Assembly: GCA_029561465.1 (NCBI GenBank)
Contig: JAKQIZ010000006.1
Span: 1 to 46,805 of the forward strand
Length of the DNA stretch: 46,805 nt
Reading direction: 5' to 3'
DNA from: Deltaproteobacteria bacterium
Lineage (GTDB): Bacteria; Desulfobacterota; Syntrophia; Syntrophales; UBA8958
The first letter of the stretch is position 1; each line of letters starts with the position of its first letter. A program made the position numbers and the translations under genes. Under the pieces are notes generated by a model. It saw only the letters and a list, made by a program, of their open reading frames with translations. It was not told the origin of the DNA and did no database searches. Positions 6,851-43,324 of this stretch are shown here, piece by piece.

Positions 6851-6947
6851 ACGCCGGAGTGAAGCCGGTGAAAAACAACGCCCATGACGGCTTGTCATGT
6901 ACGATGATTTAGGGAATGTAAGGCGGGAAAGAGGAGAGGGAAAGTCG

Positions 6948-7226
6948 ATGCCTCCGGAAATGATCGCCAAGATCGACACCGTCCTGGAACGGGTCAAGGA
7001 TCCGGAAAGCGGCCTGCCCGTGGGGCAATTGGGTTTTATCAAGCGCTTCCGCTATAACGAAAAGGAGGGGAAGCTGTACGTCTTTGCCGATACGTACCGT
7101 CACCTGCCCAAATGTGTTACCTGCGCCGCCATTGCCGGCGCGGTGATGTCCGGTATCATCCGGGACATTACCACTGAACTTCAGAGGGAATTTCCCGATC
7201 TGGCCATTGAGTTTGCCCCGGCCTGA
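6948..7226 (+). CDS. Small conserved protein, MIP18/DUF59-like
   Basis: The ATG at 6948 follows GAGGAGAGGG and gives a 92-aa protein; the track start at 6897 has no ribosome site. It has a KIDTVLERVKDPESGLPVGQ opening, similar to DUF59/MIP18 proteins (V-x-D-P-E-x-x-x-S-V-x-x-L-G) used in Fe-S and metallocentre assembly. Two cysteines (CVTC) sit in the middle, followed by a glycine/alanine helix. The DUF59 match is by eye only; a distinct small family is possible. It stands alone, about 100 bases after the DD-peptidase. Confidence 0.55.
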   Translation: MPPEMIAKIDTVLERVKDPESGLPVGQLGFIKRFRYNEKEGKLYVFADTYRHLPKCVTCAAIAGAVMSGIIRDITTELQREFPDLAIEFAPA

Positions 7227-7287: not shown

Positions 7288-7325
7288 AAAAAAAACCGCC
7301 ATCTGACACCTGTGTCAGATGGCGG
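7288..7325 (-). terminator. Intrinsic terminator for the minus-strand rubrerythrin unit
   Basis: On the minus strand a perfect 14-bp stem (CCGCCATCTGACAC / GTGTCAGATGGCGG) with a two-base apex is followed directly by eight T residues (eight A on the plus strand, 7288-7295). This is a textbook Rho-independent terminator. It lies about 290 bases past the rubrerythrin stop, so the transcript would have a long 3' untranslated region. Confidence 0.8.
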
Positions 7326-7521
7326 CCCGACCATCAAAGTCCTCCAGAAATGAGTTTCTGAACCCTATCTCAATATTTAATTTTGGCCGAAAGGCTATAA
7401 AATTCTCTCCATGACGTCAAGAGTTTATTTGATGTGGCTTTGAGACGATGCAGACTAATTGTCCTTGCTTCCCATATGTTTTGATCATCCTGCCTTGATG
7501 GCCAATCTGCACCGCAATTAA

Positions 7522-7549
7522 CCGGGTGATCGTCGCGACGATCACCCGG
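7522..7549. promoter_or_regulatory. 28-bp perfect palindrome
   Basis: CCGGGTGATCGTCG followed at once by its exact reverse complement. There is no T-tract on either side, so it is not an obvious terminator. It lies in the otherwise gene-free 7227-7612 interval, between the terminator and the rubrerythrin stop. It could be a regulator site, a recombination site or a 3'-UTR hairpin. The rest of this interval shows nothing recognisable to me. Confidence 0.45.
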
Positions 7550-7612: not shown

Positions 7613-8134
7613 CTAGAAAAATCTTCCGAAGCGGAGTGCTGCGTACATGGGGTCGTTGTCGGCGCGGAGGCCGGCGACCATAACGAGGTGCGATTTTTCC
7701 TCTTTGACGATTTTTTCGAAGAATTTTTTCTGATCTTTGTCCTTGGCGAGTTTGGCCAGCTCCGTGTAGAGGAGGATGGCGTTTTTCTCGGCGGCCATGG
7801 CGATGGCGGCGGCCTGTGCTACCGTATCCACCTTTTCCAGGCGTTTGTTGACGGTATCGCCCTTGGGGAAGAGGCCTTCCTGGACGATGGCTTCGAGGTA
7901 GGTGTCGATATCCGGGTTTTTGAGGCACTGGTCGATGCCCTTGCCCTCCGCCTTGGCCTTGAACTCCAGGAAGATATCCATATGCTTGGCCTCCTCCTTG
8001 GCGAGGGAGACGAAGAGTTTTTTGAGATCTTCATTGCCGGAGAATTTCTTGGCGGCCTTCATATAGAAGTTCATGCCGTCCTTTTCCGCCCTGATGGCGA
8101 AGTTAAACACACCCAAATCCTGTTTTTGCGCCAT
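7613..8134 (-). CDS. Rubrerythrin-like ferritin-superfamily protein
   Basis: A 173-aa protein from ATG 8134, which is preceded by AAGGAGGT; the longer track start at 8188 has no such site. It is a four-helix di-iron domain with the E-x-x-H signatures EEAKH (helix 2) and EEKSH (helix 4) and partner glutamates in FAIRAEKDGMNFY and MAAEKNAILLY. There is no C-terminal rubredoxin domain, so it is a short erythrin. Such proteins reduce peroxide or handle iron in anaerobes. It is the last gene before a strong terminator. Confidence 0.88.
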   Translation of the reverse strand: MAQKQDLGVFNFAIRAEKDGMNFYMKAAKKFSGNEDLKKLFVSLAKEEAKHMDIFLEFKAKAEGKGIDQCLKNPDIDTYLEAIVQEGLFPKGDTVNKRLEKVDTVAQAAAIAMAAEKNAILLYTELAKLAKDKDQKKFFEKIVKEEKSHLVMVAGLRADNDPMYAALRFGRFF

Positions 8135-8225
8135 GATCTTACCTCCTTGAGTTTGATGGTTGATAAAATTATCACGCCCGCACCTCATCGCTTCCGGGCT
8201 CGGGACCGGAAGGAAGCGATTGATT

Positions 8226-8546
8226 TTAATAAACAGACTTGCGGCCCTCGGCGAGGCCCTTCTTTGTCTCCGGTTTTCCCTTGCACTCCAGGGGCATGGG
8301 TATATCCTCGCCGGGTTCGCAGGGGAGGTTGCTCATGCTCTTGGCGGCGCAGCGGCCGATTTTGAAGCCGACATCATAACAGGACTGCGGTTTTGCCGCC
8401 GCCGGAGGCGCCTCCTGCGTGGCTGCCCCTTGCTGTTGGGTGGGTGAGGGCGGTGGCTGTTTTCCACCCTCGCCGCATCCGGCAAGCATGGTTACGCCGA
8501 GCATAAGCACCAGGATGAAGATAATAAAAACAGGTAATTTTCGCAT
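8226..8546 (-). CDS. Small lipoprotein, unknown function
   Basis: A 106-aa protein with a typical lipoprotein signal: MRK, a hydrophobic core and the lipobox L-A-G-C at about residues 21-24. A Pro/Gln/Ala-rich linker follows, then a small C-terminal domain with three cysteines (SCYDVGFKIGRC, LPCEPG, LECKG) that may form disulfides. I do not recognise the family. It begins nine bases after the membrane-protein gene at 8555, so it is probably the last gene of the ArsA operon. Confidence 0.7.
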   Translation of the reverse strand: MRKLPVFIIFILVLMLGVTMLAGCGEGGKQPPPSPTQQQGAATQEAPPAAAKPQSCYDVGFKIGRCAAKSMSNLPCEPGEDIPMPLECKGKPETKKGLAEGRKSVY

Positions 8547-8554
8547 GGTTCCTC

Positions 8555-9214
8555 CTATTTCAGAATTGTTGGTATCCAGCGGTAAATGGGGGCCAGGGCC
8601 GCGGCCACGGTCCCCGTTTTAGGGATCATAAAGATGAAACTCCGCTGCTGCTCCGGGACCAGGGCAATGTGGCGCACCAGGCCGGGATCGGGCTGTTTGT
8701 TCACGAAATTCCGGAGTCTCTGCCGGATCGTTTCGTTGCCGAAGTAGAGGATGAAATCCAAATTGCCCCAGCGCACTGCTTCGGACTGCAGGCGGTCGAC
8801 ATTGGTGATTTTTGGTCCCCGGAAGCGGGCATAACCCTTTTCGATGAGATGCCCCTCGGCGATGGGCGCCCGGCGAAGGTGGATGGTGATGAAGAGGCGG
8901 TCGTATTTGCGGATGAGCTTGGAGACTGGCATCCACAGCCAGGCGTGGCGGGGCAGGAAGGTGATGGTGGCGTCCACCCGTTCCACCGGGGCCGACTTGG
9001 GCGGCCGGAGGGTCGCATGATAGCCGATGAGACCGCCGATGTTGGTGAAGGTCTGATCCACCGGCTTGACTACTGCCACCAGATCCGAAAAGGCGCTCCG
9101 GAAGATCCGGTCGTTGATCCGCTTCCCCCAGAAATAACCCGCCCCCAGGAGAAAGGAAAGGGCGATGAAGAGATAGAAGAGGGGCTCCCCGGCCAGATGG
9201 GCGTATTCAAACAT
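8555..9214 (-). CDS. Membrane-anchored protein of the ArsA operon, unknown family
   Basis: The protein runs from ATG 9214 (GGAGGAGAGG upstream) and is 219 aa long; the start overlaps the end of the ArsA gene. One N-terminal membrane segment (PLFYLFIALSFLLGAGYF) is followed by a soluble, mainly beta domain of about 190 residues. I do not recognise the fold; the segments DATITFLPRHAWLWMPVS and VRWGNLDFILYFG are the most distinctive. The overlap with an ArsA/Get3-type ATPase suggests a membrane partner for it, but this is inference from position only. Confidence 0.65.
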   Translation of the reverse strand: MFEYAHLAGEPLFYLFIALSFLLGAGYFWGKRINDRIFRSAFSDLVAVVKPVDQTFTNIGGLIGYHATLRPPKSAPVERVDATITFLPRHAWLWMPVSKLIRKYDRLFITIHLRRAPIAEGHLIEKGYARFRGPKITNVDRLQSEAVRWGNLDFILYFGNETIRQRLRNFVNKQPDPGLVRHIALVPEQQRSFIFMIPKTGTVAAALAPIYRWIPTILK

Positions 9215-10166
9215 GGTCCTCTCCTCCCCCGCCAAAGTGGACGGTCAGGTCTTCGGGTATTTCGTACAGCGGCGTATCACCCCCCAGGGTGAACGCCGGG
9301 TTCAGGGCAACGCTCGCCACCGCCGCACCGCTGGCCAGGCGTTGCAACTCCCCGGCGATGCGGTCCGCAAGGGCCCGGTTTTCCGCCGTGACCTTATTGG
9401 CGATCAGGAGTACGAGGGGCAGCTTCAGCTCCCGGAGCCCGGTAATGAGCCGCTCCGATTCCCGCAGCGAGAGGAGGTCGGGATTGAAGACCGTCACCAC
9501 GCCGCACTCCTCCCCCTGGAGTCTCCGGATCAGGACCTTGTAGTTGTCCGCCAGCAGCCTGAGGCGCTTGAGGATGTCGTCGCCGCTCTCGTCGTATTCC
9601 AGGCGGATCTCCCGGTTGGCCTCCCACTCCTTGGCGCCGCCGCGGATCTTCTGAATGGTATGGCGCTTGTCGAGGATCTGCCGGCGGATCGCCGTGAGCC
9701 GCTCTATCCACGTCATCGTGACCTGGGGCAGGGCGAGAAACCGCAGCGTCAATCCCGTCGGCGGTGTGTCGAAGACGAGATAGTCGTAGCCATCCTCTTC
9801 CCGGAGGGTCCGCTCGATACTCGTCAGCAGGGCGTACTCCTCGATGCCGGGGGAGTACTTCAGGATGGAGAAGTAGTTGTCCAGGTTAAGGACCCGGAGA
9901 TAATGGTAGGACTCGGCCAGGACCTTTGTCTCCCGTTCGAGGTAATCCCGGGCCAGCTTGCGGAGATCCACCTCCCGGAGATGCAGCCTCGGGGAAACCC
10001 GCGTCCCGCCGTTGCCCACCGTGACGCCGAAGACGTCGCCAAGATTGTGGGCCGGGTCCAAAGATACCGCGAGGACCCGGTACTGCCGGGAAAGCTGCCA
10101 GGCGGCGGCCGCTGCCAGGGTGGATTTCCCCACCCCACCCTTGCCGGTAAAAAAAAGGACCTTCAT
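9207..10166 (-). CDS. ArsA/Get3-family ATPase
   Basis: A 319-aa single-domain ATPase starting at MKVLFFTGKGGVGKST, a deviant Walker A (GKGGVGKST) with the signature lysine. It is followed by the A'-type SLDPAHNLGDVFG and the switch-like DTPPTGLTLRFLALP, both typical of ArsA/Get3/TRC40 proteins. The codons before ATG 10166 in the track belong to another frame. No arsenite pump or regulator is nearby, so arsenic resistance is not supported. A role with the adjacent unknown membrane protein, such as protein targeting or cofactor handling, is only a guess. The upstream 98-aa gene ends one base before this start. Confidence 0.85.
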   Translation of the reverse strand: MKVLFFTGKGGVGKSTLAAAAAWQLSRQYRVLAVSLDPAHNLGDVFGVTVGNGGTRVSPRLHLREVDLRKLARDYLERETKVLAESYHYLRVLNLDNYFSILKYSPGIEEYALLTSIERTLREEDGYDYLVFDTPPTGLTLRFLALPQVTMTWIERLTAIRRQILDKRHTIQKIRGGAKEWEANREIRLEYDESGDDILKRLRLLADNYKVLIRRLQGEECGVVTVFNPDLLSLRESERLITGLRELKLPLVLLIANKVTAENRALADRIAGELQRLASGAAVASVALNPAFTLGGDTPLYEIPEDLTVHFGGGGEDHV

Positions 10167-10167
10167 C

Positions 10168-10464
10168 TCAGTCGATCCCCAGGGTGCCGGCAATCTCCGC
10201 CAGCATGTCGCCGGCATCCTCCGCCCGGCGGTGGAGGACCTGGATCTCCCGCTCCATATAAGGCAAAAGCTCCACGGCCAGAAAACCGGGCGGCGCCGGC
10301 AAACCCACAAAAGAACCCAACAGCAGCAAGGCGAAGATGTTCTCCAGCTCCTGCGCCTCCAGACAGGTCAGCGCCACCAGCCCCTCCCGCTGCGCCGTAC
10401 CCATGTCCGCCACCAACCGCCGGCAATAACTCAAAAACGAACCACCCATAAAATCCTCATGCAT
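10168..10464 (-). CDS. Small helical protein upstream of the ArsA-type ATPase
   Basis: I choose ATG 10464 (98 aa, starting MHEDFMGGSF) because the longer track start at 10524 adds a basic leader with no homologous look. The sequence is helical, with a hydrophobic middle (IFALLLLGSFVGLPAPPGFL) and an amphipathic C-terminal helix (MEREIQVLHRRAED). It could sit at a membrane or cap the ATPase. The spacing of one base to the ArsA gene argues for a functional pair. I do not recognise the family. Confidence 0.6.
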   Translation of the reverse strand: MHEDFMGGSFLSYCRRLVADMGTAQREGLVALTCLEAQELENIFALLLLGSFVGLPAPPGFLAVELLPYMEREIQVLHRRAEDAGDMLAEIAGTLGID

Positions 10465-10763: not shown

Positions 10764-12587
10764 TCAATCTCCCTGCTTTCTCATCTTGATGAAGTCGAAG
10801 ATGAAGAGGAAGTTGAGGACCAGCATGATGCCCATGATGATCTGGACGGTCCAGCCCTGGCCGGGGGCCTTGGCGATGTTGGCCGGCATGACGACGATCA
10901 TGAACCAGATGATGGCGGCGGTTACGGTGACCCAGAGGAAATAGGCGGGGACCACCGCCATGATGGCGAATTTGGATTTCAGCTTTTTGGCCACGAAGGC
11001 CGCCCCGGTCATGAGGGCGATAGAGGCGATGAGCTGGTTGGCGGCGCCGAAGGACGGCCAGACGATGGTGAACTGCTTGCTCCAGGCCAGGTACATGCCG
11101 ATGAGGGCCGGGACCAGGGAGGCGATCCAGCGGTTCGTCAGGACGTTGTAGATACCCGAGGCGGCGTCTTTCACCGGGGCCAGCATCTCCACGAGGCAGT
11201 ACCGGGCGATGCGGTTTGTCGTATCCAGGGTGGTGAGGGCGAAGGCGGAGATCCACAGACCGGCGATGATCTTGACGATCTTCACGGGGATGAAGGAGAG
11301 GAAGCTCGCCGCCACCATGTCGGAGTAGGTCTGGACGACGAGGTTGGCCTGGGAGAGCTTCAGGGCCTCCGAGGTCTTGGTGAAGAGCTGCCCCCAGTTG
11401 TCCAGGGTCAGGGCGAAGGGGGCGACGGTAGCCTTGGCCGCGGCCGCGGCGCCGCCGGCTGCCGCCACCGCCCCCGCGGCTGCCGCTTTCGCGGCGGCGG
11501 CGGCCTGGGCGGCCATAGCCGCTTCATGACCGTTCCTGAGGGCCGTGAAGCCGAAGCCGGCGATGGCGCAAATGACGATGGTGGAGAGGAAACCCTCGGT
11601 GAACATGGAGCCGTAACCGATGAAGAGGCCGTCAGACTCCTTGGTGATCTGTTTGGACGAGGTTCCCGAGGCGACGAGGGAGTGGAAGCCCGACAGGGAA
11701 CCGCAGGCGATGATCAGGGGGATGGCGGGCCAGAACGGCGTCGGCTTGCCACCCACCAGGATCGGCGAGAACTCGGTCATCATGGGGATCTCCACGCCCC
11801 GGAAGGTGAAGAAGGCGGCGGCGAAGCCCACGAAGATCCCGAAGTAGAGCAGCCAGGAATTCAGGTAGTCCCGGGGCTGTAGCAGAATGTTCACCGGGAT
11901 GGCCGCGGCGATAATGATATAGAAGAAGAGGACCACCAGCCAGGCCTCGAAGCTCAGGGCGATGGGCATGAGTGTTCCTCCCCAGATGGCCACGGCCATT
12001 AAGGCGATCCCGATGACGGTGGCGGCGGGGAGGTTCATCTTCACCTGGTAGAGGAGATACCCGAGAATAATAGCGACGATGGTGACGAAGATGGAGGCCC
12101 CGGCGATCTCCGGCGTCTTGACGAACATGGAGGAGATGACCGTGGCGAAGGCCGCGACGACGAGCACCAGGAGGAAGAAGACGATCCAGTAGAAGGCCGT
12201 CCCCGTCCGTTTGGAGATGAGATCCGAGGCGACGAACTGGATCGATTTGCCGTCGTAGCGCATGGAGGCCATGAGGGCCAGGTAGTCATGGACGGCGCCG
12301 ATGAAGATGTTCCCCAGCCAGACCCAGGCCAGCGCCGGGAGCCAGCCCCAGCACATGGCCATGGCCGGGCCGACGATGGGGCCCGCCCCGGCGATGGAGG
12401 AGAAGTGGTGGCCGAAGAGGACCATCCGGTGGGCGGGGACGTAGTCGATCCCGTCATAGAGACGCTTCGACGGGGCCTCGATCTCATCCGAGGCCCGTAC
12501 TACGTCCCGCTCGATCTTTTTCCCGTACGTAAAGTACAGGCCCATATAAAGGATGAAGCCGATGATACAGATAACGGTTGTGGTCAT
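10764..12587 (-). CDS. cstA: Carbon starvation protein CstA, peptide/pyruvate transporter
   Basis: A 607-aa polytopic membrane protein with the CstA N-terminus, including DGIDYVPAHRMVLFGHHFSSIAG (quoted in part: VLFGHHFSSIAGAGPIVGP) and the GWLPALAWVWLGNIFIGAVHD region. CstA proteins import peptides or pyruvate when carbon is scarce. The start is clear, with AAAGGAGGT before ATG 12587. It is shorter than E. coli CstA and carries an unusual Ala/Gly-rich insert of about 40 residues near 352-392, rich in AAAAAK-type runs, in what should be a loop. It is transcribed alone and followed by a hairpin. Confidence 0.93.
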   Translation of the reverse strand: MTTTVICIIGFILYMGLYFTYGKKIERDVVRASDEIEAPSKRLYDGIDYVPAHRMVLFGHHFSSIAGAGPIVGPAMAMCWGWLPALAWVWLGNIFIGAVHDYLALMASMRYDGKSIQFVASDLISKRTGTAFYWIVFFLLVLVVAAFATVISSMFVKTPEIAGASIFVTIVAIILGYLLYQVKMNLPAATVIGIALMAVAIWGGTLMPIALSFEAWLVVLFFYIIIAAAIPVNILLQPRDYLNSWLLYFGIFVGFAAAFFTFRGVEIPMMTEFSPILVGGKPTPFWPAIPLIIACGSLSGFHSLVASGTSSKQITKESDGLFIGYGSMFTEGFLSTIVICAIAGFGFTALRNGHEAAMAAQAAAAAKAAAAGAVAAAGGAAAAAKATVAPFALTLDNWGQLFTKTSEALKLSQANLVVQTYSDMVAASFLSFIPVKIVKIIAGLWISAFALTTLDTTNRIARYCLVEMLAPVKDAASGIYNVLTNRWIASLVPALIGMYLAWSKQFTIVWPSFGAANQLIASIALMTGAAFVAKKLKSKFAIMAVVPAYFLWVTVTAAIIWFMIVVMPANIAKAPGQGWTVQIIMGIMLVLNFLFIFDFIKMRKQGD

Positions 12588-12847: not shown

Positions 12848-13633
12848 TTACGAGAAATTTTCATATGATTGCCACTCGTACCAGTGGTCGAGGGCCAGCG
12901 CGGCGGCCCAGGCGTCGATCATCGCCCGATCGCCGGCATGATCGTCTTTCCGCCGGGCCGCCGTTATCCGGACCAGCGGGGCGCCGTCGAGGATGAAGAT
13001 CGTTTTGTGGTAGGGGCCGATGAAATCGCCGTGAAAATGATCTTCCAGGCTCTTGAAGAAAACGAAGTTCATGATGTTGGCGGCGCGGTAGATCCGGGCC
13101 GGGGTAGCCCGGCGGACGTCCGGCGACAGGGACTGGAGGGCTTGACGCCGCTGGACGGAGATGTTGTGGAGCTGCAGGCGCCGCAGCTCCGGGCAGTGGT
13201 CATACAGCCATTTGTTTACCATGATGTCCGCGGGCATCCGGGTGAGTTGAAAGACCACTCCCTGATACCACCGGGCGATCATCCGCCGCACCTTGTCCCG
13301 GCCGAAGATGGCGACCAGGCGCTCCAGTTCGCTTTCCGTTTCCATGATGAACGAGGCCATGGTCCGGCGGCCGGCCACGGAGACGAAGCGCGCCGCCGCC
13401 GGGGCGCTGAAGAAACGCAGCAGGTGTCCGGTCTGATTGGCGACGAGGAAGTTGACATCCGTTTCGGGGTGGGGGCGATAATCGAAAACAAGGCGCGGTT
13501 CCCCTCTGCCGCCCAGATGAAAGTCGATCGGCGCCGCCAGCTCCGGTTTTTTTGCGACGGCGATCTTCTCTCCCGCCAGCCTTTCCACCTCGGCCAGAAG
13601 CTGCCGCACGCTGTCCATGAGTTGCAGGTCCAT
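12848..13633 (-). CDS. Conserved-looking protein of unknown function
   Basis: A 261-aa soluble protein. I place the start at ATG 13633 with GAGGG nine bases upstream; the track start at 13642 is TTG. It opens with a helix (MDSVRQLLAEVERLAGEKIAV), then a beta-rich part with PRLVFDYRPHPETDVNFLVANQTGHLLRFF. A helical second half contains RMPADIMVNKWLYDHCPELRRL. There is no signal peptide or membrane helix. No family or catalytic motif is recognised. It stands apart from cstA by 260 bases and is probably monocistronic. Confidence 0.6.
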   Translation of the reverse strand: MDLQLMDSVRQLLAEVERLAGEKIAVAKKPELAAPIDFHLGGRGEPRLVFDYRPHPETDVNFLVANQTGHLLRFFSAPAAARFVSVAGRRTMASFIMETESELERLVAIFGRDKVRRMIARWYQGVVFQLTRMPADIMVNKWLYDHCPELRRLQLHNISVQRRQALQSLSPDVRRATPARIYRAANIMNFVFFKSLEDHFHGDFIGPYHKTIFILDGAPLVRITAARRKDDHAGDRAMIDAWAAALALDHWYEWQSYENFS

Positions 13634-13768
13634 GGGAATCAACCCTCATTGCCGACCATGAAACACCCATGACGATGTCCCGTCACATTTTCCCGTCGAT
13701 GGCCGGGCCGTTGCCGCTATTCCATAGCATTAATGTCCCGTCTTGGGAAGCTCCGGATGGGGAAGCGC

Positions 13769-35150: not shown

Positions 35151-36089
35151 TCACCGACTGCGGTTCTTTTTACGGAAGAAATCCAGGATGCCGTTGGGCA
35201 TGAAGATGGTGACGACGATGAAGAGGGCGCCGTAGATGATCCGGGCGATTTCCGCTTGGGCGAAGGTGGAGAGCAACTCGTTGACCACGGTGAGGATGAC
35301 GGCCCCGATGATCGGTCCCAGCCAGGTGCCCCCGCCTCCGAACATGGCCATGAGGACGATGAGGATGGAGATATTGATATTGAAGACGACGTCGGCGTGG
35401 ATGTAGGTCAGGTAATATGCGAAGAGGCCGCCGGCGATCCCGGGGAAGAAGGCGGAGAGAATGAAGGCCTGGATCTTGATCCTTGCCGTGGGGATGGCCA
35501 TGGTCTCGGCTACCTCTTCATCGGAGCGGACGGCTCTAAGGCCGGCGCCGAGACGCGAGCGGCCGATCCACCAGGCAACGGCCAAAGTGACGACCATGAG
35601 GAGGAGCATGACTTCGTACATGATGGAGCGGGAGAGCTTTTCCGGGACATCCATGATCTGCATCCAGATCCCCTCGGCCCCACCGAGGTATTCGATATTC
35701 TTGACGGCCAAATCGACGACAAAGGCGAAGCAGAGCGTTACGACGGCGAAGTAAGGTCCCCGGATCTTCAGGCATGGATAGCCGATGATGAGGGCGACGA
35801 GGGCCGCTATCGCCCCCGCCGGGATGGCGGCCAGGATGGTCAACACGGGCGGCAATTCGAAAACAGCCGCCATCTTTGCCGTGGCAAAGGCGCCGATGCC
35901 GAAGAAGGCCGCATGGCCGAAGGAGAGGTAGCCGGCGTAGCCGCCGATGAGATTCCACGAGGAGGCGAGAATCACATACATGAAAACGGAAAACATGAAG
36001 GACAGGTAATAGACCTCCGGTGAGAGAAAGGGGAAAGCGGCGAGCATGACGATGATGATTGCCGTAGCGGCCAGGGGGGCTTTTTTCAT
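35151..36089 (-). CDS. livM: Branched-chain amino acid-type ABC permease LivM
   Basis: A 312-aa permease from ATG 36089. It has the LivM signature SWNLIGGYAGYLSFGHAAFFGIGAF (quoted in part: GGYAGYLSFGHAAFFGIG), the EAA-like LRAVRSDEEVAETMAIPTA and GGGGTWLGPIIGA. It is the second permease subunit of the importer and the last gene of the minus-strand cluster. It starts two bases after livH's stop. Confidence 0.93.
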   Translation of the reverse strand: MKKAPLAATAIIIVMLAAFPFLSPEVYYLSFMFSVFMYVILASSWNLIGGYAGYLSFGHAAFFGIGAFATAKMAAVFELPPVLTILAAIPAGAIAALVALIIGYPCLKIRGPYFAVVTLCFAFVVDLAVKNIEYLGGAEGIWMQIMDVPEKLSRSIMYEVMLLLMVVTLAVAWWIGRSRLGAGLRAVRSDEEVAETMAIPTARIKIQAFILSAFFPGIAGGLFAYYLTYIHADVVFNINISILIVLMAMFGGGGTWLGPIIGAVILTVVNELLSTFAQAEIARIIYGALFIVVTIFMPNGILDFFRKKNRSR

Positions 36090-36091
36090 TT

Positions 36092-36967
36092 CTATACCCC
36101 CTGCTTGAACAGGCCGTGGGGCCGTAAGATTAGAAACACCATGAGGAACCCGAAGGTGACGAGATTCACCCACTGGAAGGGAAGAAAGGCCATGGACAAA
36201 CCCGTGATCACCCCGATGATAAGTCCCGCGAGGGCCGTGCCGGCGACATTGCCCACTCCGCCCACAATGACCACTAAAAAGAGATAGATCAGCCAGAGAT
36301 TATGGGAGTGGGGCTCGAAGGAATTGAGGAGCGCCAGGCTTATGCCCCCGGCGCCCCCCGTAGAGACGGCCAGGGCGAAGGTGATCATGCTGATCCGGTA
36401 AAGGTTAACGCCATACAACTGGGCGGCTTCGGGCTGCTGCCAGGCGGCCCGGACGGCCATCCCCGTGTAGGTTTTCTTCAAAAAGAAATAGATGGCGGCA
36501 ATTCCTGCAATAGACAAGGTGAAACCGACGAGATGAGGATACTGAAAATAGAAGGGGCCCACGATCAGGGCGCCGCTGGCGTAAGTCGGCGTCATGATGC
36601 GGGGATCGGCCTTCCAGATAAGTACCATTACGTTTTCCATGATGATGGCGAGGCCGAAGGTGAGGATCATCGACGCCACGATGACCTCCTTGGCTCTGGT
36701 GATGGGTTTGATGAGGAGCTGATAGACCCCGCAGGCCAGGATGAACAGCAGCGGTACGGACACCGCCGCTGAAACGACGGGATCGATCCCGAAATACGCC
36801 AGCAGGCTGTAAGCCAGATAGGCCCCCAGGAGTCCGAAGGCGGCATGGGAGATGTGGATGACGTGCATGACTCCCCAGGTCAGGGAGAACCCGACGCTGA
36901 GGAGTGCATACACCATTCCGATCATTATGCCGCTGATCAGCGACTGTATTACTAAGACAGCGTCCAC
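36092..36967 (-). CDS. livH: Branched-chain amino acid-type ABC permease LivH
   Basis: A 291-aa permease with GTG start at 36967 directly after the livJ stop. Family motifs: MVYALLSVGFSLTWGVMHVI near the N-terminus, the EAA-like VRAAWQQPEAAQLYGVN and VVIVGGVGNVAGTALAGLIIG. It pairs with LivM to form the membrane channel. The tight spacing (1-2 bases on both sides) shows one transcript. Confidence 0.93.
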   Translation of the reverse strand: MDAVLVIQSLISGIMIGMVYALLSVGFSLTWGVMHVIHISHAAFGLLGAYLAYSLLAYFGIDPVVSAAVSVPLLFILACGVYQLLIKPITRAKEVIVASMILTFGLAIIMENVMVLIWKADPRIMTPTYASGALIVGPFYFQYPHLVGFTLSIAGIAAIYFFLKKTYTGMAVRAAWQQPEAAQLYGVNLYRISMITFALAVSTGGAGGISLALLNSFEPHSHNLWLIYLFLVVIVGGVGNVAGTALAGLIIGVITGLSMAFLPFQWVNLVTFGFLMVFLILRPHGLFKQGV

Positions 36968-36968
36968 T

Positions 36969-38177
36969 TCACTTCTTCCAGGCCGGTTTCGGATAGACCG
37001 GTTCTTTCGTCCGGACGTTCTTCGGGAAGATCAACTCCACCTTGCCGTTGATAATCTGGGTGGCGAAGTTGATCGGCGCCGGGAGGCCGTACTTGTCGAA
37101 GGCCATGGGACCGGCGATGGTATTGACCTGGTGAGTCTTCAGCCAATCGCGGATCTTTGTCTGATCCAGGCTCTTGGCGCCTGTCACTCCCTGCTGGAGG
37201 GTCTGCATCCAGGCGTAGCCGAACCCGAAATAGAGGGGGTACGCCGGCAGTTTGTATTTTTTCTTCACATAGGCGTTGAGTTTGTCGTTCCCCTGGTAGT
37301 TGAGCATGCCGTGGAGGACGGTCCCGGAAAAGACATAGTCGCCGTCCCTTCCCAGTTCCTTTACCCAGGCGGGGACGACGGAACCGATCCCCTGGACGAT
37401 GGCCTTGGGATTGTAGTCGAGGGCCTTGGCGGCCTTGATCGTCGTGACGCCGTCCGGGAAGAAGCCGTTGGAGAAGAGGATGTCGCAGTTCATCTGCTTG
37501 GCCTTGACGATGAGCGAGGTGGCGTCAGTCAGGGGGGAGTTGTATTTTTCATTGATCACGACATCGATCTTGAGGTATTTTGTCCAGCGGTTGATGGAGT
37601 CCTGCAGCGATAGACCGACGGGATTGTTGATCGTATAGACGGCGGCCCGCTTCGGACGCTGGTTGGCAGGCAGGGTGTTCAGCCACTGGAAGAACCCCTC
37701 GTACCACCACTCGCCCATCAGCGGCGGGGCGCCGAAAGAGTAGGTATAGCCCTGCTGGAAGCTCTTCATATGGCCGCCCATGGAGACATAGACCATCTTG
37801 TGTTTCTCCGCCACGGCCATGACGGCCCGGGCGGCGGTGCCGGGATAGCCGCCGAAGAGGAGATCGACCTTATCTACGGTGATGGCCTTTTCCGCGAAGG
37901 TTACGGCCTTGCCCACATTGGACTGGTCGTCGTAGATCTTGAATTCCACATGCCGTCCCAGGAGCCCCCCTTTGGCGTTGACTTCTTCCGCCCAGTAGCG
38001 CATGCCCCTTTCGATCCACAAGCCCGTTTCGGCAAATTCACCCGTGAGGGGCAGCGAGCCGCCGATGACGATGGGTTTGCCGGCGCCGATGGCCGCTGCC
38101 GGGACCGTCAACAGCAGGCCGCAAAGTACGGTGACGGTCATGAATAAAGAGAAGCCTTTCATCCGTTTCCCTTTCAT
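36969..38177 (-). CDS. livJ: Periplasmic substrate-binding protein LivJ/LivK type
   Basis: A 402-aa protein from ATG 38177 with AAGGAGG upstream. It has a signal peptide (FMTVTVLCGLLLTVPAAAIGAG) and then the type I periplasmic fold (IVIGGSLPLTGEFAETG, EFKIYDDQSNVGKAV, GGYPGTAARAVMAVAEKHKMVY quoted in part). It brings the ligand to LivHM. The long form (about 370 mature residues) and the Tyr/Trp-rich pocket region suggest something other than a simple branched amino acid, but the ligand cannot be read from the sequence. Confidence 0.92.
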   Translation of the reverse strand: MKGKRMKGFSLFMTVTVLCGLLLTVPAAAIGAGKPIVIGGSLPLTGEFAETGLWIERGMRYWAEEVNAKGGLLGRHVEFKIYDDQSNVGKAVTFAEKAITVDKVDLLFGGYPGTAARAVMAVAEKHKMVYVSMGGHMKSFQQGYTYSFGAPPLMGEWWYEGFFQWLNTLPANQRPKRAAVYTINNPVGLSLQDSINRWTKYLKIDVVINEKYNSPLTDATSLIVKAKQMNCDILFSNGFFPDGVTTIKAAKALDYNPKAIVQGIGSVVPAWVKELGRDGDYVFSGTVLHGMLNYQGNDKLNAYVKKKYKLPAYPLYFGFGYAWMQTLQQGVTGAKSLDQTKIRDWLKTHQVNTIAGPMAFDKYGLPAPINFATQIINGKVELIFPKNVRTKEPVYPKPAWKK

Positions 38178-38242
38178 TATGAAACCTCCTTCCAATGCTT
38201 GGTTTATCTTAGGATCTGCCACGGTTATTTCGTGATAAACCC

Positions 38243-38947
38243 TTATAGTCCTAAATAGGACGTCTTGACTTGCGGATTCTCCCGGAGTTCCGCGGAAGGG
38301 CCTTCCATGGCCACCACTCCGTTTTCCAGGACATATCCGCGGGCGGTGATCGCCAGTGTCTCCAGGACCTCCTGGGATACCAGGAGCACCGACAGCCCTT
38401 CCTTGTTCAATTGCCTGACGGTGGCAAAGATTTCTACCGCCGCCTTGGGTGACAGACCCAGGGAAGGTTCATCCAGCATGAGGAGACGGGGCCTGGCCAT
38501 CAAAGCCCGCCCCAGGGCTGCCATCTGTTGTTCTCCTCCCGAGAGGCTGCCGGCCAATTGACGTCGCCGGTCGGCAAGGCGGGGGAAGATTTCGTATACA
38601 TGAGCGAGGGTTTTCCGGCTCGCCTTCCGGACCGTCGGCAAATATGCCCCCATGATGAGGTTTTCTTCCACCGTCATGGCGGGAAAGAGCTTGCGTCCCT
38701 CCGGGACTTGCACGATTCCCTCCCGGCATATCCGGTCCGGGGCAAAACCCTTCAGGGGTTTGCCCTCCCAGCTTATACCGCCGCCGGCCGCGGGGACCAG
38801 GCCGGAGACGGCGTTGAGGAGGGTTGTCTTACCGGCGCCGTTGCCGCCGATGAGGGCCACCATTTCCCCCGGGGCGACCTCCAGGGACACGCCGCGCAGG
38901 GCCTCCATCCGGCCGTAACAGACGGTTATATTATCAACACGCAGCAT
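38243..38947 (-). CDS. livF: ABC transporter ATP-binding protein LivF
   Basis: A 234-aa ATPase. Walker A GGNGAGKTTL, signature LSGGEQQ, Walker B LLMLDEPSLGLSP; the tail is typical of LivF (YVLENGVVAMEGPSAELREN). It starts 14 bases inside the end of livG. Together LivF and LivG drive the importer. Confidence 0.94.
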   Translation of the reverse strand: MLRVDNITVCYGRMEALRGVSLEVAPGEMVALIGGNGAGKTTLLNAVSGLVPAAGGGISWEGKPLKGFAPDRICREGIVQVPEGRKLFPAMTVEENLIMGAYLPTVRKASRKTLAHVYEIFPRLADRRRQLAGSLSGGEQQMAALGRALMARPRLLMLDEPSLGLSPKAAVEIFATVRQLNKEGLSVLLVSQEVLETLAITARGYVLENGVVAMEGPSAELRENPQVKTSYLGL

Positions 38948-39665
38948 AAGCGGCTCCCAGATAGGCGGAGATGACCTCCGGATGATTGGCCACCTCTTCC
39001 GGCGGTCCTTCGGTGATCTTGATCCCGAAATTCAGGACCATGATGCGGCTGCACGTGGACATGATGGCCTTCATCACGTGTTCGATCATGAAGATCGTCG
39101 TTCCGTAAGTATCCCGGATCCGGAAGGTCAACTCGATGGCGCTGCTGATTTCCGTCGGATTAAGCCCCGCAAAGACCTCGTCCAGGAGCAGGATTTCCGG
39201 ATTGAGGGCCAGCGCCCGGGCTATTTCCAGACGCTTGCGGTCTTCCAGGACGAGTTCACCGGGAAGGCGGCGGGCCTTTTGCGTCAAGCCCGTAAAATCA
39301 AGGATCTCCTTGGCCTTCTCCCGGGCGCCTTTGGTTGCGGCCGTATGCTTGCGGCCGTAAAGAACGCCGGTGACGACATTATCAATGAGGTTCAGGCCCG
39401 TCAGGGGGCGAACGATCTGAAAGGTGCGGCCAATGCCCAGACCGGCCCGTTTATAGGGAGGGAAATCCGTTATTCTCCGTCCCTCGAAAAACAGGTCTCC
39501 CTCTTCAGGTCTGTAAATGCCGGAGATAACGTTGAAAAGAGTCGTTTTCCCCGATCCGTTCGGACCGATGAGGCCGACGATCTCGCCGCGGCGCACCTCG
39601 AAATCTACTTCCGAAAGGGCCGTCAGACCGCCGAAACGCTTGGTTATCTTTTTACCTGTGAGCAT
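38934..39665 (-). CDS. livG: ABC transporter ATP-binding protein LivG
   Basis: A 243-aa ATPase from ATG 39665; the longer track start reads through palindromic repeat DNA. Walker A GPNGSGKTTL; the LivG-type insert GIGRTFQIVRPLTGLNLIDN; a degenerate signature (ELVLEDRKRLEIARALA, with LSGG replaced by LVLED); Walker B ILLLDEVFAGLNP. Partner of LivF. The altered signature motif is noted, though LivG often deviates from the LSGGQ consensus. Confidence 0.92.
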   Translation of the reverse strand: MLTGKKITKRFGGLTALSEVDFEVRRGEIVGLIGPNGSGKTTLFNVISGIYRPEEGDLFFEGRRITDFPPYKRAGLGIGRTFQIVRPLTGLNLIDNVVTGVLYGRKHTAATKGAREKAKEILDFTGLTQKARRLPGELVLEDRKRLEIARALALNPEILLLDEVFAGLNPTEISSAIELTFRIRDTYGTTIFMIEHVMKAIMSTCSRIMVLNFGIKITEGPPEEVANHPEVISAYLGAAYAAC

Positions 39666-39687
39666 TTTAACCCCATCCCCACCCCAT

Positions 39688-39706
39688 CCTCCCCTTGAAG
39701 GGGAGG
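39688..39706. repeat. GGGGAGG inverted repeat, copy 2
   Basis: CCTCCCCTTGAAGGGGAGG, nine-base arms, just upstream of livG. It is almost the same palindrome as at 14536. It lies between livG and the cyclase gene and may weaken read-through. Confidence 0.5.
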
Positions 39707-39745
39707 GAGATATGATTAGGCGCGTGTATTTTCCGCCTTCTCCGT

Positions 39746-39767
39746 CCCTCCCCATAGAAGGGGAGGG
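39746..39767. repeat. GGGGAGG inverted repeat, copy 3
   Basis: CCCTCCCCATAGAAGGGGAGGG. The third copy, about 40 bases from copy 2. The two hairpins fill most of the 157-base gap between livG and the upstream cyclase-family gene. Confidence 0.5.
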
Positions 39768-39822
39768 TGATTGATAAGCGTAAAGCTTCCCGTCGTTTCC
39801 ACCTCAATAATCTGTCCCGTCC

Positions 39823-40593
39823 TCACTTTTCCACCAAAGCTACGGCACGGCACCAGCCCGCGCTGCCCCCGGCGAGTTTTACGGGAAAGCAGGCCACCTT
39901 GAAACCGAATGGCCTGGGCAGCTTGTCCAGGTTGGCCAGCTTCTCCAGATGGCAGTATTCCCGTTCGATGCCCGCCAGATGGGCTTCCCAGAGGATGTTC
40001 CGGTCGCCCGTTTTTGCGAAATCTTCCTTGATGGCCCAGAACGGCCGGTCCCACCCCCAGGCATCGATGCCCATGACCCGGATGCCCTGCTCCACCAGCC
40101 AAAGGGTCGATTCCCGGCTCATGCCGCACCCGGCGTCGAAATACTCCGCCTGCCCCCAGAACTTGTCGGCCCCCGTCATGATCAGGACGATGTCATAGGG
40201 CTGCAGGGAGTATCCGATGCGGCCCAGCTCTCTTTGCAGGTCCGCACTGCCGATCGCCGCTCCTTTCGGTTTGTGACGGAAATCGAGGACGACGCCGTCG
40301 CCATAGCACCACTCCAGGGGAATCTGATCGATGGTGCGGGCCGCCTTTCCCTCGCTTTGGGGGGCGTAGTGCCAGGGGGCGTCCAGATGGGTGCCCGAGT
40401 GGGATATCATTTCCACGCGGTCGTTTGCATAACCCAGGCCGTTGCGGAGATCCGATTCCTTGCACCCGAAAAAACCCGCCAGCACCGGGGCCGTCTCACG
40501 ATGGCTTTCATGGGTCACCTTCAGGGAAAGGGCCTCGCTCGGGCTTTCCTCGGTTGGTACGCTCAGGTCGATAATGGTAATCTTTCCGTTCAC
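39823..40593 (-). CDS. Cyclase-family metal-dependent hydrolase, paralogue 2
   Basis: A 256-aa protein with GTG 40593 and GAGGTGAAGGG upstream. The family metal motif is HSGTHLDAPWHY; others are QIPLEWCYGDGVVLDFRH and MGIDAWGWDRP. The fold is shared with kynurenine formamidase (KynB) and bacterial isatin hydrolases, which open amide or lactone rings using Mn or Zn. Paralogue of 41606-42385, with which it shares the whole length. It alternates with BKACE genes in the cluster, so it may hydrolyse a cyclic intermediate of the same pathway. It is separated from livG by two palindromes. Confidence 0.86.
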   Translation of the reverse strand: MNGKITIIDLSVPTEESPSEALSLKVTHESHRETAPVLAGFFGCKESDLRNGLGYANDRVEMISHSGTHLDAPWHYAPQSEGKAARTIDQIPLEWCYGDGVVLDFRHKPKGAAIGSADLQRELGRIGYSLQPYDIVLIMTGADKFWGQAEYFDAGCGMSRESTLWLVEQGIRVMGIDAWGWDRPFWAIKEDFAKTGDRNILWEAHLAGIEREYCHLEKLANLDKLPRPFGFKVACFPVKLAGGSAGWCRAVALVEK

Positions 40594-40675
40594 CCCTTCA
40601 CCTCGCTTTCCTCGAAGTCTTGATCGTCACTAAAAACATGGTAACCTCTCCATGATGGGACGGTTTGCGAAATCG

Positions 40676-41596
40676 TCAATATTTTACCTTGTCCAGTCCC
40701 TTCAGGCCGAGGATGCCTCTGGCCTCCGCGGGGCTGGCCGGTTCGATGCCCAGCGCTTTGGCAATCCGCACGATGTTTGCCACCTGCTCGGCATTGCTCT
40801 TGGCCAACTGTCCTTTTTCCAGATACATGCTGTCTTCCAGACCGACGCGAACATTTCCGCCCAACAGCAGGGCGGCCGTGCCCATCTTCATCTGGTATTG
40901 ACCGGCGGCGCAGACCGACCAGACAAAATCTCCGATGGCTTCCTTCGCCGTTTTGTAGAGGAAGAGCAGATTGTCCATCCTGGCGGGGATTCCTCCCAGG
41001 AGTCCCATGACGAACTGCAGGTAAACGGGTTTTTCGATGTGCCCCCCCTCGATCATGTGGGCCAGGTTATTGATCATGGCCACATCGTAGATCTCGATCT
41101 CCGGCTTCGTGCCGTGCTCCTTGAAGGTGGCGGCGAACTCCCGCATGCTTTTGAAGGTGTTGGGGAAGATGTAGTCCTCCGTCATGGCCAGAAACGCCGG
41201 CTCCCAGGGGAACTTGAAATTGCTGTGCTTGGCGAGGAGCGGGTAAAGGGCCACATTGATGGAGCCGAAATTGAACGATCCCATCTCCGGCGCGAAGGCG
41301 GGGATGACGGCCAGGCGCTGTTCCGTGCTCATTCCCAGCCCCCCGCCCGTCGTTATGCAGAGGATGATGTCGCAACGGGACTTGATGTCCGTAATCGCCT
41401 CGCGGTAGAGATCGAGGGATGATGAAGGTTGCCCCGTTTCGGGGTTCCGTGCGTGGATATGGGCCACGGCGGCCCCGGCCTCCCAGGCCCGGACCGTATC
41501 GTCGGCGATCTGCTTGGGGGTGATGGGCAGGTAAGGGGTCATGGAGGGGGTATGGATGCCCCCGGTAATTGCCGCCGTAAAAATCGCTTTTGACAT
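40676..41596 (-). CDS. Beta-keto acid cleavage enzyme (BKACE, DUF849), paralogue 2
   Basis: A 306-aa TIM-barrel protein with AAGGAGAG before ATG 41596. The zinc ligands are in VAHIHARNPETG (H-x-H) and VRVGLEDSMYL, where R, E and D match the catalytic R226/E230/D231 of the lysine-fermentation enzyme Kce by spacing (from memory). At the N-terminus TAAITGGIHTPSMTP has no acid where Kce has Glu14, which contacts the substrate amine. BKACE enzymes condense a beta-keto acid with acetyl-CoA to give acetoacetate and a new CoA ester. The substrate is probably not 3-keto-5-aminohexanoate. Paralogue of 42401-43324. Confidence 0.88.
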   Translation of the reverse strand: MSKAIFTAAITGGIHTPSMTPYLPITPKQIADDTVRAWEAGAAVAHIHARNPETGQPSSSLDLYREAITDIKSRCDIILCITTGGGLGMSTEQRLAVIPAFAPEMGSFNFGSINVALYPLLAKHSNFKFPWEPAFLAMTEDYIFPNTFKSMREFAATFKEHGTKPEIEIYDVAMINNLAHMIEGGHIEKPVYLQFVMGLLGGIPARMDNLLFLYKTAKEAIGDFVWSVCAAGQYQMKMGTAALLLGGNVRVGLEDSMYLEKGQLAKSNAEQVANIVRIAKALGIEPASPAEARGILGLKGLDKVKY

Positions 41597-41605
41597 AAGC
41601 TCTCC

Positions 41606-42385
41606 TTATTCGTTGACAATGGCTACGGGGCGGCACCAGCCGGCGGAGGCCCCTTTGATCTTGACGGGGAAGCAACAGACCGTAAAGCCGTGGGGTCTGC
41701 CGATAGCGGCAAGATTGGACAGCTTCTCCATATGACAATATCCCATCTCGATGCCGGCAAAGTGGGCCTCCCAGATGACCTTCGGGTCCCCTTTGTCCTT
41801 GAATTCACGGGCCAGGAAAGGCAGGGGACGGTCCCAACTCCAGGCGTCGATGCCTACTACCTTTATGCCTCTCTCCGTCAGGAACAGGGTGCTTTCCCTG
41901 GTCATGCCCGGTCCCTTGACGAGATACTCCGCCGTACCCCAGGCGGCGTCGGCGCCCGTCTGAACGAGGACGATATCCAGGGGCTTCAACTCGTAGCCGA
42001 TCCTGTCCAACTCCTTCTGCACGTCGGCGGCGGTAATCCGCTCCCCGTCGCCCTTATGGCGGAAATCGAGAAGAACGCCGTCATTCATACACCAGTCGAG
42101 AGGGACCTCGTCAATGGTAAGGGCCCGCTTCCCCTGATCCTGCGTGGGGTGGTAGTGGTAGGGGGCGTCTAAGTGGGTGCCGCTGTGGGTGGTGAGGTTG
42201 ATAAATTCCAGCGCCCAGCCGAGGCCGCCGGGGAGCTGCTCCCGCTTGATTCCCGGGAAGAAGTCGAGCATCTGCGTTGCCCCCGCCGTGTGATCGACAT
42301 AATCGATCCTGGGGATCATCATGGGGGGATCGCAAGGGAGAGACGCCTCGATGGCGATACTCAGATCTATGAATCGTTTGCCCAT
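41606..42385 (-). CDS. Cyclase-family metal-dependent hydrolase, paralogue 1
   Basis: A 259-aa protein with GAGGAGG before ATG 42385. Metal motif HSGTHLDAPYHYHP, then EVPLDWCMNDGVLLDFRH and VVGIDAWSWDRP. It ends ASAGWCRPVAIV as its paralogue ends SAGWCRAVALV, so the two arose by duplication of a cyclase+BKACE module. It lies nine bases from one BKACE gene and 15 from the other. Confidence 0.88.
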   Translation of the reverse strand: MGKRFIDLSIAIEASLPCDPPMMIPRIDYVDHTAGATQMLDFFPGIKREQLPGGLGWALEFINLTTHSGTHLDAPYHYHPTQDQGKRALTIDEVPLDWCMNDGVLLDFRHKGDGERITAADVQKELDRIGYELKPLDIVLVQTGADAAWGTAEYLVKGPGMTRESTLFLTERGIKVVGIDAWSWDRPLPFLAREFKDKGDPKVIWEAHFAGIEMGYCHMEKLSNLAAIGRPHGFTVCCFPVKIKGASAGWCRPVAIVNE

Positions 42386-42400
42386 TTTTTCCTCCTCTCG

Positions 42401-43324
42401 TTAGAAGTTTACCTTGTCAATTCCCTTGAGCCCCAGGATCTGCCGCGCCTCCGCCGGTGTCGCCGCCTCGACGCCGAGCTCCCGGGCGATGCGGACGATC
42501 TTGGCTACCTGCTCGGCGTTGCTTTTTGCCAACTGCCCCTTTTCCAGGAAAAGATTGTCTTCCAGGCCGACCCGGGCGTGTCCCCCCATCATCAGGGAGG
42601 TCGTACACAGATTGAACTGGGTCTTGCCGGCGGCGCAGACGGAAAACTGAAAATCACCGATGGCCTTCCGGGCGGTCTCCAGGAGGATAACGAAGTTTTC
42701 GATCGTTGCCGGGATGCCGCCGAGGATCCCCATGACAAACTGGAGATAAACGGGTTTCTTCACATGGCCCTTCTCGATGAGAAAGGCGAGGTTGTTGATC
42801 ATCCCGACGTCGTAGATCTCGAATTCCGGTTTCGTTCCCTGAGCGGCGAATTTTTCCAGAAACTGCCGCATCGTCAGGAAGGTGTTGGGAAAGATGAAGT
42901 CCTCCGTGGCGGCCAAATACCCCTTTTCCCAGTCGTGGGTCCACTGCTCGTAGTTGTCGGCGATATGGAAGAGGGCGAAATTGAGGGAGCCGGCGTTGAG
43001 GGTAGCCAGTTCGGGCGACAGGCTGGTGACGACGCGGACGCGGTTTTCCACCGGTTCGCCCAGGCGACCGCCCGTTGTGCAGCAGATGACCATATCGCAA
43101 AGTTTCTTTACCCCTTCCGCAAAGGTCCGGAAGATTTCCTGGTCGGCGCAGGGAAGGCCGGTTTCGGGATTGCGGACATGGACGTGGGCGACGGCCGCCC
43201 CGGCCTCATAAGCCCGTACCGCTTCGTCGATGAGTTGTTCCGGGGTGACGGGCAGATAGGGGGACATGCTGGGGGTGTGGATCGCCCCGGTCAGGGCGGC
43301 GGTGATGATTCTTTTTTCCCTCAT
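42401..43324 (-). CDS. Beta-keto acid cleavage enzyme (BKACE, DUF849), paralogue 1
   Basis: A 307-aa protein with GAAAGGAG before ATG 43324. Zinc/catalytic motifs VAHVHVRNPETG and ARVGLEDNLFL are conserved as in its paralogue; the tail LGLKGIDKVNF matches LGLKGLDKVKY. As in the other copy, TAALTGAIHTPSMSP lacks an acidic residue at the Kce Glu14 position. It is the first enzyme gene after the regulator, so probably the first made. Having two copies suggests two successive or parallel cleavages. Confidence 0.88.
   Translation of the reverse strand: MREKRIITAALTGAIHTPSMSPYLPVTPEQLIDEAVRAYEAGAAVAHVHVRNPETGLPCADQEIFRTFAEGVKKLCDMVICCTTGGRLGEPVENRVRVVTSLSPELATLNAGSLNFALFHIADNYEQWTHDWEKGYLAATEDFIFPNTFLTMRQFLEKFAAQGTKPEFEIYDVGMINNLAFLIEKGHVKKPVYLQFVMGILGGIPATIENFVILLETARKAIGDFQFSVCAAGKTQFNLCTTSLMMGGHARVGLEDNLFLEKGQLAKSNAEQVAKIVRIARELGVEAATPAEARQILGLKGIDKVNF

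Follow-up and report, generated by a model that had tools for sequence, protein, structure and literature searches.

The window, by which we mean the whole 46,805-nt stretch of DNA analysed, at its full length, contains an operon with all its genes on the minus strand. The genes of the operon and two genes close to it are the following:

10764..12587, minus strand: cstA, encoding a 607-aa multipass protein of the peptide/pyruvate transporter family (PF02554, E 1.4e-126)
10168..10464, minus strand: cstX, encoding a 98-aa small helical protein, a distant relative of the NCBIfam family cory-CC-star
9207..10166, minus strand: gene for an arsA/Get3-type ATPase of 319 aa, single domain, of a CstA-associated clade (PF02374, TIGR00345)
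8555..9214, minus strand: cstY, encoding a 219-aa protein with a predicted N-terminal transmembrane (TM) helix and a cytosolic alpha/beta domain; probable CCDC47 homologue
8226..8546, minus strand: gene for a 106-aa lipoprotein with the lipobox LAGC
6897..7226, plus strand: DUF59/FeS_assembly_P-like gene, 109 aa, with a weak Pfam match of its own (E 0.0054)

The ATPase gene begins 1 nt past the stop of cstX, and cstY overlaps the ATPase gene by 8 nt. These coordinates agree with the initial annotation, which had described a 98-aa protein, a single-domain ArsA/Get3 ATPase and a 219-aa N-terminally anchored membrane protein with touching or overlapping genes; cstA, which lies directly upstream of cstX and is a member of the unit, was absent from its account. 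A Cys-containing lipoprotein had also been counted as part of the operon. The lipoprotein gene is indeed present after cstY, but it adjoins the operon in only one (L004, from the same genus as the window) of the 26 relatives described below, and we rejected it as an operon partner. A scan for promoters and terminators gave sites no more numerous than in shuffled sequence. We conclude that the unit in the window is cstA-cstX-arsA-cstY. Upstream of cstA, a 264-aa ORF (12848-13642, minus strand) had no Pfam or NCBIfam match.

The ATPase matched ArsA_ATPase (PF02374) with an E-value of 1.3e-49 and passed the cut-off of TIGR00345 (GET3_arsA_TRC40) with 163.7 bits against 135. It carries the deviant Walker A motif GKGGVGKS and the switch I motif SLDPAHN (alignments A3 and A9). 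Get3 is a membrane-protein targeting ATPase, and the protein in the window resembles the Get3/TRC40 ATPases for tail-anchored proteins in that it is a single-domain P-loop ATPase with both of these motifs and a TIGR00345 match; by contrast, it lacks the CxxC zinc motif of Get3 proper, containing a single Cys where the diverse set has no conserved one, and is linked to one transporter gene. The ArsA arsenical pump ATPase belongs to the same superfamily; however, the arsenic-pump type defined by the equivalog TIGR04291 has two tandem ATPase domains, whereas the ATPase in the window has one, is without conserved metal-binding cysteines and scored only 87 bits against the TIGR04291 cut-off of 650. 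Moreover, no matches to Acr3 or ArsB were found in the 92%-complete assembly. On the basis of the low equivalog score and of the lack of Acr3 and ArsB matches in this assembly, we rejected a link to arsenic, for which the initial annotation had likewise seen no sign. No second ATPase of the same kind was found in the genome.

Among 60 related genomes searched, 26 relatives from the same order had a close ATPase (loci L002-L027). In all 26, cstX precedes the ATPase gene and cstA lies upstream; cstY follows the ATPase gene in 25, and the 26th locus ends at a contig edge. In almost all of these loci, neighbouring reading frames overlap or are separated by a few bases. Because the first two genes recur in 26/26 and the third in 25/26 order relatives, the arrangement is not due to chance. 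The initial annotation had taken freely varying neighbours as a sign against its proposal; this genome-neighbourhood survey clearly found them to be constant instead.

The same order of cstA, small protein, ATPase and 219-aa protein is kept in distant Desulfobacterota (L054-L059), and cstA is upstream of the small gene in most of the distant loci. Three loci (L060-L062) contain cstA, a gene for a membrane protein of ~150-190 aa, the small protein and the ATPase, and are without cstY; the membrane protein, encoded between cstA and cstX, had no convincing Pfam match. Two further loci (L064 and L065), also without cstY, carry, beside cstA, a run of two genes for small proteins (cstX) and two genes for different ATPases, which suggests that the ATPase is a heterodimer whose subunits each have a small partner. 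As these five loci retain cstA-cstX-arsA in the absence of cstY, some members of the family do without CstY.

When named genome contigs were scanned with a CstY alignment that had been widened, 80 cstY loci were obtained. The bacterial loci are from Desulfobacterota, Nitrospirota, Dehalococcoidia, Spirochaetaceae, WOR-3, TA06, KSB3, Caldisericota and others, and the archaeal loci are from Thermococcus, Archaeoglobus, Geoglobus, Ferroglobus, Methanoliparum, Aciduliprofundum and Thermoplasmata; homologues of the 219-aa protein are at the equivalent position in Thermococcus, Archaeoglobus and Geoglobus. The ATPase gene is directly upstream of cstY in 73/80 loci and is usually preceded by the genes for the small protein and CstA. 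In six loci (L111, L120, L123, L136, L145 and L153), cstY lies apart, and the genomes retain the clade ATPase (E 1e-51 or better) as well as CstA; such co-retention without physical linkage is better evidence for a joint function than an operon alone. The distribution of CstY is patchy, with 8 of the 247 genomes of the phylum encoding it. In total, we conclude that the four genes are a conserved unit across bacteria and archaea. Second copies of cstY, in tandem or flanking cstA, were observed in L125, L131, L137, L141, L144, L155, L156 and L169-L172; in Spirochaetes, the second copies are sometimes beside a DUF59 gene.

Castillo & Saier 2010 (PMC2963123) described operons in which cstA is accompanied by genes for an ArsA homologue of about 320 aa, with a single domain, and for the ~90-aa protein CstX; CstY, of ~210 aa and with a single TM helix, is reported there from five archaea only. 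The authors proposed that the ArsA homologue energises CstA via CstX, and noted co-evolving trees. The window contains an ArsA homologue of 319 aa (about 300-340 expected) with cstA and cstX directly upstream and a 219-aa single-TM-type CstY in the same operon. Thus, judged by protein size, TM number, gene order and the archaeal genera involved, the operon in the window is the module of Castillo & Saier. The likeness extends to the single-domain ArsA homologue, cstA, CstX, the single-TM CstY and the lack of arsenic genes. Likewise, the 98-aa protein is CstX by its size, position and neighbours. The view in the initial annotation that the partners of the ATPase are unknown does not hold: CstX, CstY and the link to cstA were already described in 2010 (PMC2963123). 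By contrast with the 2010 report, CstY occurs here in many bacterial phyla and not in five archaea only; the accessible text of that paper also makes no mention of a CCDC47 fold of CstY or of the recurring DUF59 gene. As far as the literature searched shows, the relation between CstY and CCDC47 and the spread of CstY through bacteria are new, while the module itself has been known since 2010.

The family model NF041419 (cory-CC-star) was matched by all 27 close and by 44 of 49 diverse CstX members. The close members checked in detail score below its cut-off, and CstX from the window has 26.8 bits where the curated cut-off is 80. The part shared with cory-CC-star is the central helix-turn region of CstX; the window protein differs in that it ends in GID and not in the Cys-Cys implied by the family name. 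No papers on cory-CC-star or on bacterial Get3 turned up in the literature searched. The structure prediction for CstX was poor (pLDDT 66), and CstX was left out of the fold search.

Structure prediction of the 219-aa protein had been proposed in the initial annotation as a check, and it gave a confident model. The AlphaFold2 model of CstY, made with 27 sequences, has a pLDDT of 88.6 and a pTM of 0.82 and consists of a long N-terminal helix (residues 11-49), the first half of which is hydrophobic, an alpha/beta domain and a final helix (203-217). When this model was compared with the PDB using Foldseek, only two matches had E <= 0.001 and both were CCDC47, i.e. chain 4 of 7tm3 from the mammalian multipass translocon (E 5.8e-8, TM score 0.70 by query length) and chain 4 of 9i78 from the fungal SND3 translocon (E 1.0e-6, TM score 0.65 by query length). 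The third-ranking match, TtfA, was much weaker (E 4e-3, TM score 0.31), and the fourth was human CCDC47 (6w6l chain 7). The CCDC47 identity of these chains was confirmed by sequence search, with a human CCDC47 query fragment identical to 6w6l_7. We conclude that CstY is predicted to adopt the CCDC47 fold of a TM helix and a globular domain.

Sequence profiles point in the same direction. The Pfam family CCDC47 (PF07946) was matched by 23 of 27 close CstY relatives (E up to 1, best 7.3e-6) and by 26 of 59 diverse CstY proteins (E up to 0.1, best 2.4e-6), and the next family was matched by 2/59. The gathering threshold of PF07946 is 27.7 bits; the best CstY score among those listed is 27.2 (L055), no listed score reaches the threshold, and CstY from the window has 10.6 bits. 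The extent of the match varies, with the TM region covered in some CstY proteins and the TM region together with the globular domain in others; for instance, residues 6-105 of the L148 protein align to profile positions 7-123. In Thermococcus CstY, only the globular domain is matched (residues 67-111 on profile positions 74-126). All matches that could be mapped share one register, and because the Thermococcus match covers the globular domain alone in that same register, we rejected the explanation that the similarity to CCDC47 is an artefact of TM composition.

In PF07946 scans of 138 whole genomes, there were three matches at the search threshold and each was a cstY gene (3/3). At the looser limit of E <= 1, which was used for the genome of the window, two control genomes also matched PF07946, below the cut-off; CstY from the window is too diverged to match PF07946 in the scan of its own genome. 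A sequence-profile search of the PDB with the CstY alignments A1, A4 and A6 gave no matches even at an E-value of 10. When A6 and A1 were compared by hhalign with human CCDC47, represented by a single sequence and thus without family depth, the comparison gave only a short match, which lay at the GKxxN segment as expected, and another one elsewhere that was at the level of chance. Altogether, the profile matches and the predicted fold provide good evidence that CstY is homologous to CCDC47, the relation being a remote one. No report of a prokaryotic CCDC47 was found in the literature searched, and according to published work prokaryotes are without PAT components. Our observations suggest that a translocon component regarded as exclusively eukaryotic has a relative in prokaryotes.

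CCDC47, which has Asterix as its partner, is a component of the PAT complex and of the multipass and SND3 translocons; in humans, this machinery serves to build complex membrane proteins. In CstY, as in CCDC47, an N-terminal TM helix is predicted to precede a globular domain on the cytosolic side, and the globular domains share one fold; however, CstY is half as long, its gene is in an operon with cstA and the ATPase gene, and it is without the N-terminal luminal region and the C-terminal latch/coiled coil. The CstY model ends with helix 203-217 after the last strand, and the sequences stop there. In CCDC47, the latch helices are placed between Sec61 and the ribosome (PMC12572126, PMC7505659). 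As CstY does not have these helices, a translocon-like position is not implied for CstY.

With regard to function, the initial annotation had suggested a targeting or envelope role; with the 219-aa protein being a probable CCDC47 homologue, a role in targeting or with membrane proteins gains real weight. We favour, as the most likely reading and with about an even chance of being correct, that the module is a dedicated ATP-driven assembly or chaperone system for the many-helix transporter CstA. This preference is based on analogy, since Get3 holds and releases hydrophobic segments in an ATP-dependent manner and CCDC47 belongs to a complex that acts as an intramembrane chaperone (PMC9630114, PMC12572126). 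In such a system, an ATP-bound dimer of the Get3-like ATPase would hold CstX and/or hydrophobic segments of newly made CstA; CstY, with its N-terminal helix as the anchor, would serve as the membrane receptor or intramembrane chaperone at which CstA and CstX are assembled; and ATP hydrolysis would free the ATPase for the next cycle. CstX would probably stay on as a small subunit of CstA, much as YbdD seems to do in Escherichia coli. The constant gene order, the overlapping reading frames, the co-retention without linkage and the CCDC47-like CstY are points in favour of assisted assembly. Against it, the module goes with a single transporter gene, as would be expected just as much from energised transport.

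The main rival is ATP-energised transport, in which the ATPase would dock on CstA via CstX (and CstY) and turn a secondary transporter into an ATP-driven one. We consider this explanation less likely than assisted assembly, even though it is the published proposal for the same module, with its co-evolving trees (PMC2963123), and fits the observation that the ATPase clade accompanies cstA inside or outside the operon. It has a precedent in the role proposed for ArsA with ArsB; moreover, E. coli YbdD is required together with CstA for pyruvate uptake (PMC5847655), i.e. CstA needs a small partner. However, energised transport leaves the translocon-chaperone fold of CstY unexplained, and the ATPase has neither conserved cysteines nor the second ATPase domain of arsenic-pump ArsA. 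The YbdD requirement bears on assisted assembly and energised transport alike: since CstA of E. coli likewise depends on a small protein, CstX may act as a structural subunit under either.

Alternatively, the ATPase, CstX and CstY could insert many membrane proteins, with cstA an ancestral neighbour or one client among others. The module is widespread, and eukaryotic Get3 and CCDC47 have broad client sets; however, cstA is kept in 6/6 genomes with a dispersed cstY and adjoins the module in every order relative, and the patchy occurrence within the phylum is unlike that of a general pathway, making this explanation improbable. Still less credible is assembly or regulation together with the DUF59 protein through iron-sulfur or metal-cofactor chemistry, with the ATPase as an Mrp-type carrier: in Nitrospirota and archaea, arsA and cstY have a DUF59 gene between them, and in many Syntrophales such a gene is nearby, but most loci with sufficient flanking sequence do not contain it, the ATPase shows no conserved cysteine pair for Fe-S binding, and CstA is not an Fe-S protein family.

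We tentatively propose, with slightly less than even confidence, that CstY is a prokaryotic relative, and possibly the ancestor, of the PAT-complex subunit CCDC47, that it forms a client-specific membrane-protein assembly pathway with the Get3-type ATPase and CstX, and that parts of the eukaryotic multipass translocon would thus derive from a transporter-dedicated chaperone module. A putative CCDC47 homologue of bacteria and archaea that is tied to one polytopic transporter and a Get3-type ATPase would constitute a small, testable system for CCDC47-like action without ribosome latch helices, and prokaryotic CstY provides a starting point for the question of the origin of CCDC47. Moreover, the idea from 2010 that ArsA homologues energise CstA is reopened, with assisted assembly as an alternative that is separable from it by simple experiments.

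In many loci from Syntrophales, DUF59 homologues lie downstream of cstY in convergent orientation. A DUF59 gene is often found next to cstY, on one strand or the other, and may be an optional fifth component of the unit. A rubrerythrin/EncB-like ferritin-fold gene (7613-8188, minus strand) also adjoins the operon in the window; it recurs mainly in the order, in 11/25 loci compared with 4/75 loci of the wider set, which includes order members. On the same strand, positions 7317-7365 matched the nhaA-I riboswitch (RF03057) with 45.2 bits, above the gathering threshold of 37. This riboswitch was not found in 13 related loci; on its strand, a strong stem and a U-run come next but no downstream gene was seen, and the riboswitch apparently is an orphan. 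The perfect inverted repeat CCGGGTGATCGTCGCGACGATCACCCGG (7522-7549) lies between the rubrerythrin-like gene and the riboswitch. Finally, positions 35151-43324 (minus strand) contain, by eye, a cluster resembling a branched-chain amino acid ABC transporter as well as two pairs of cyclase-like and BKACE-like enzymes.
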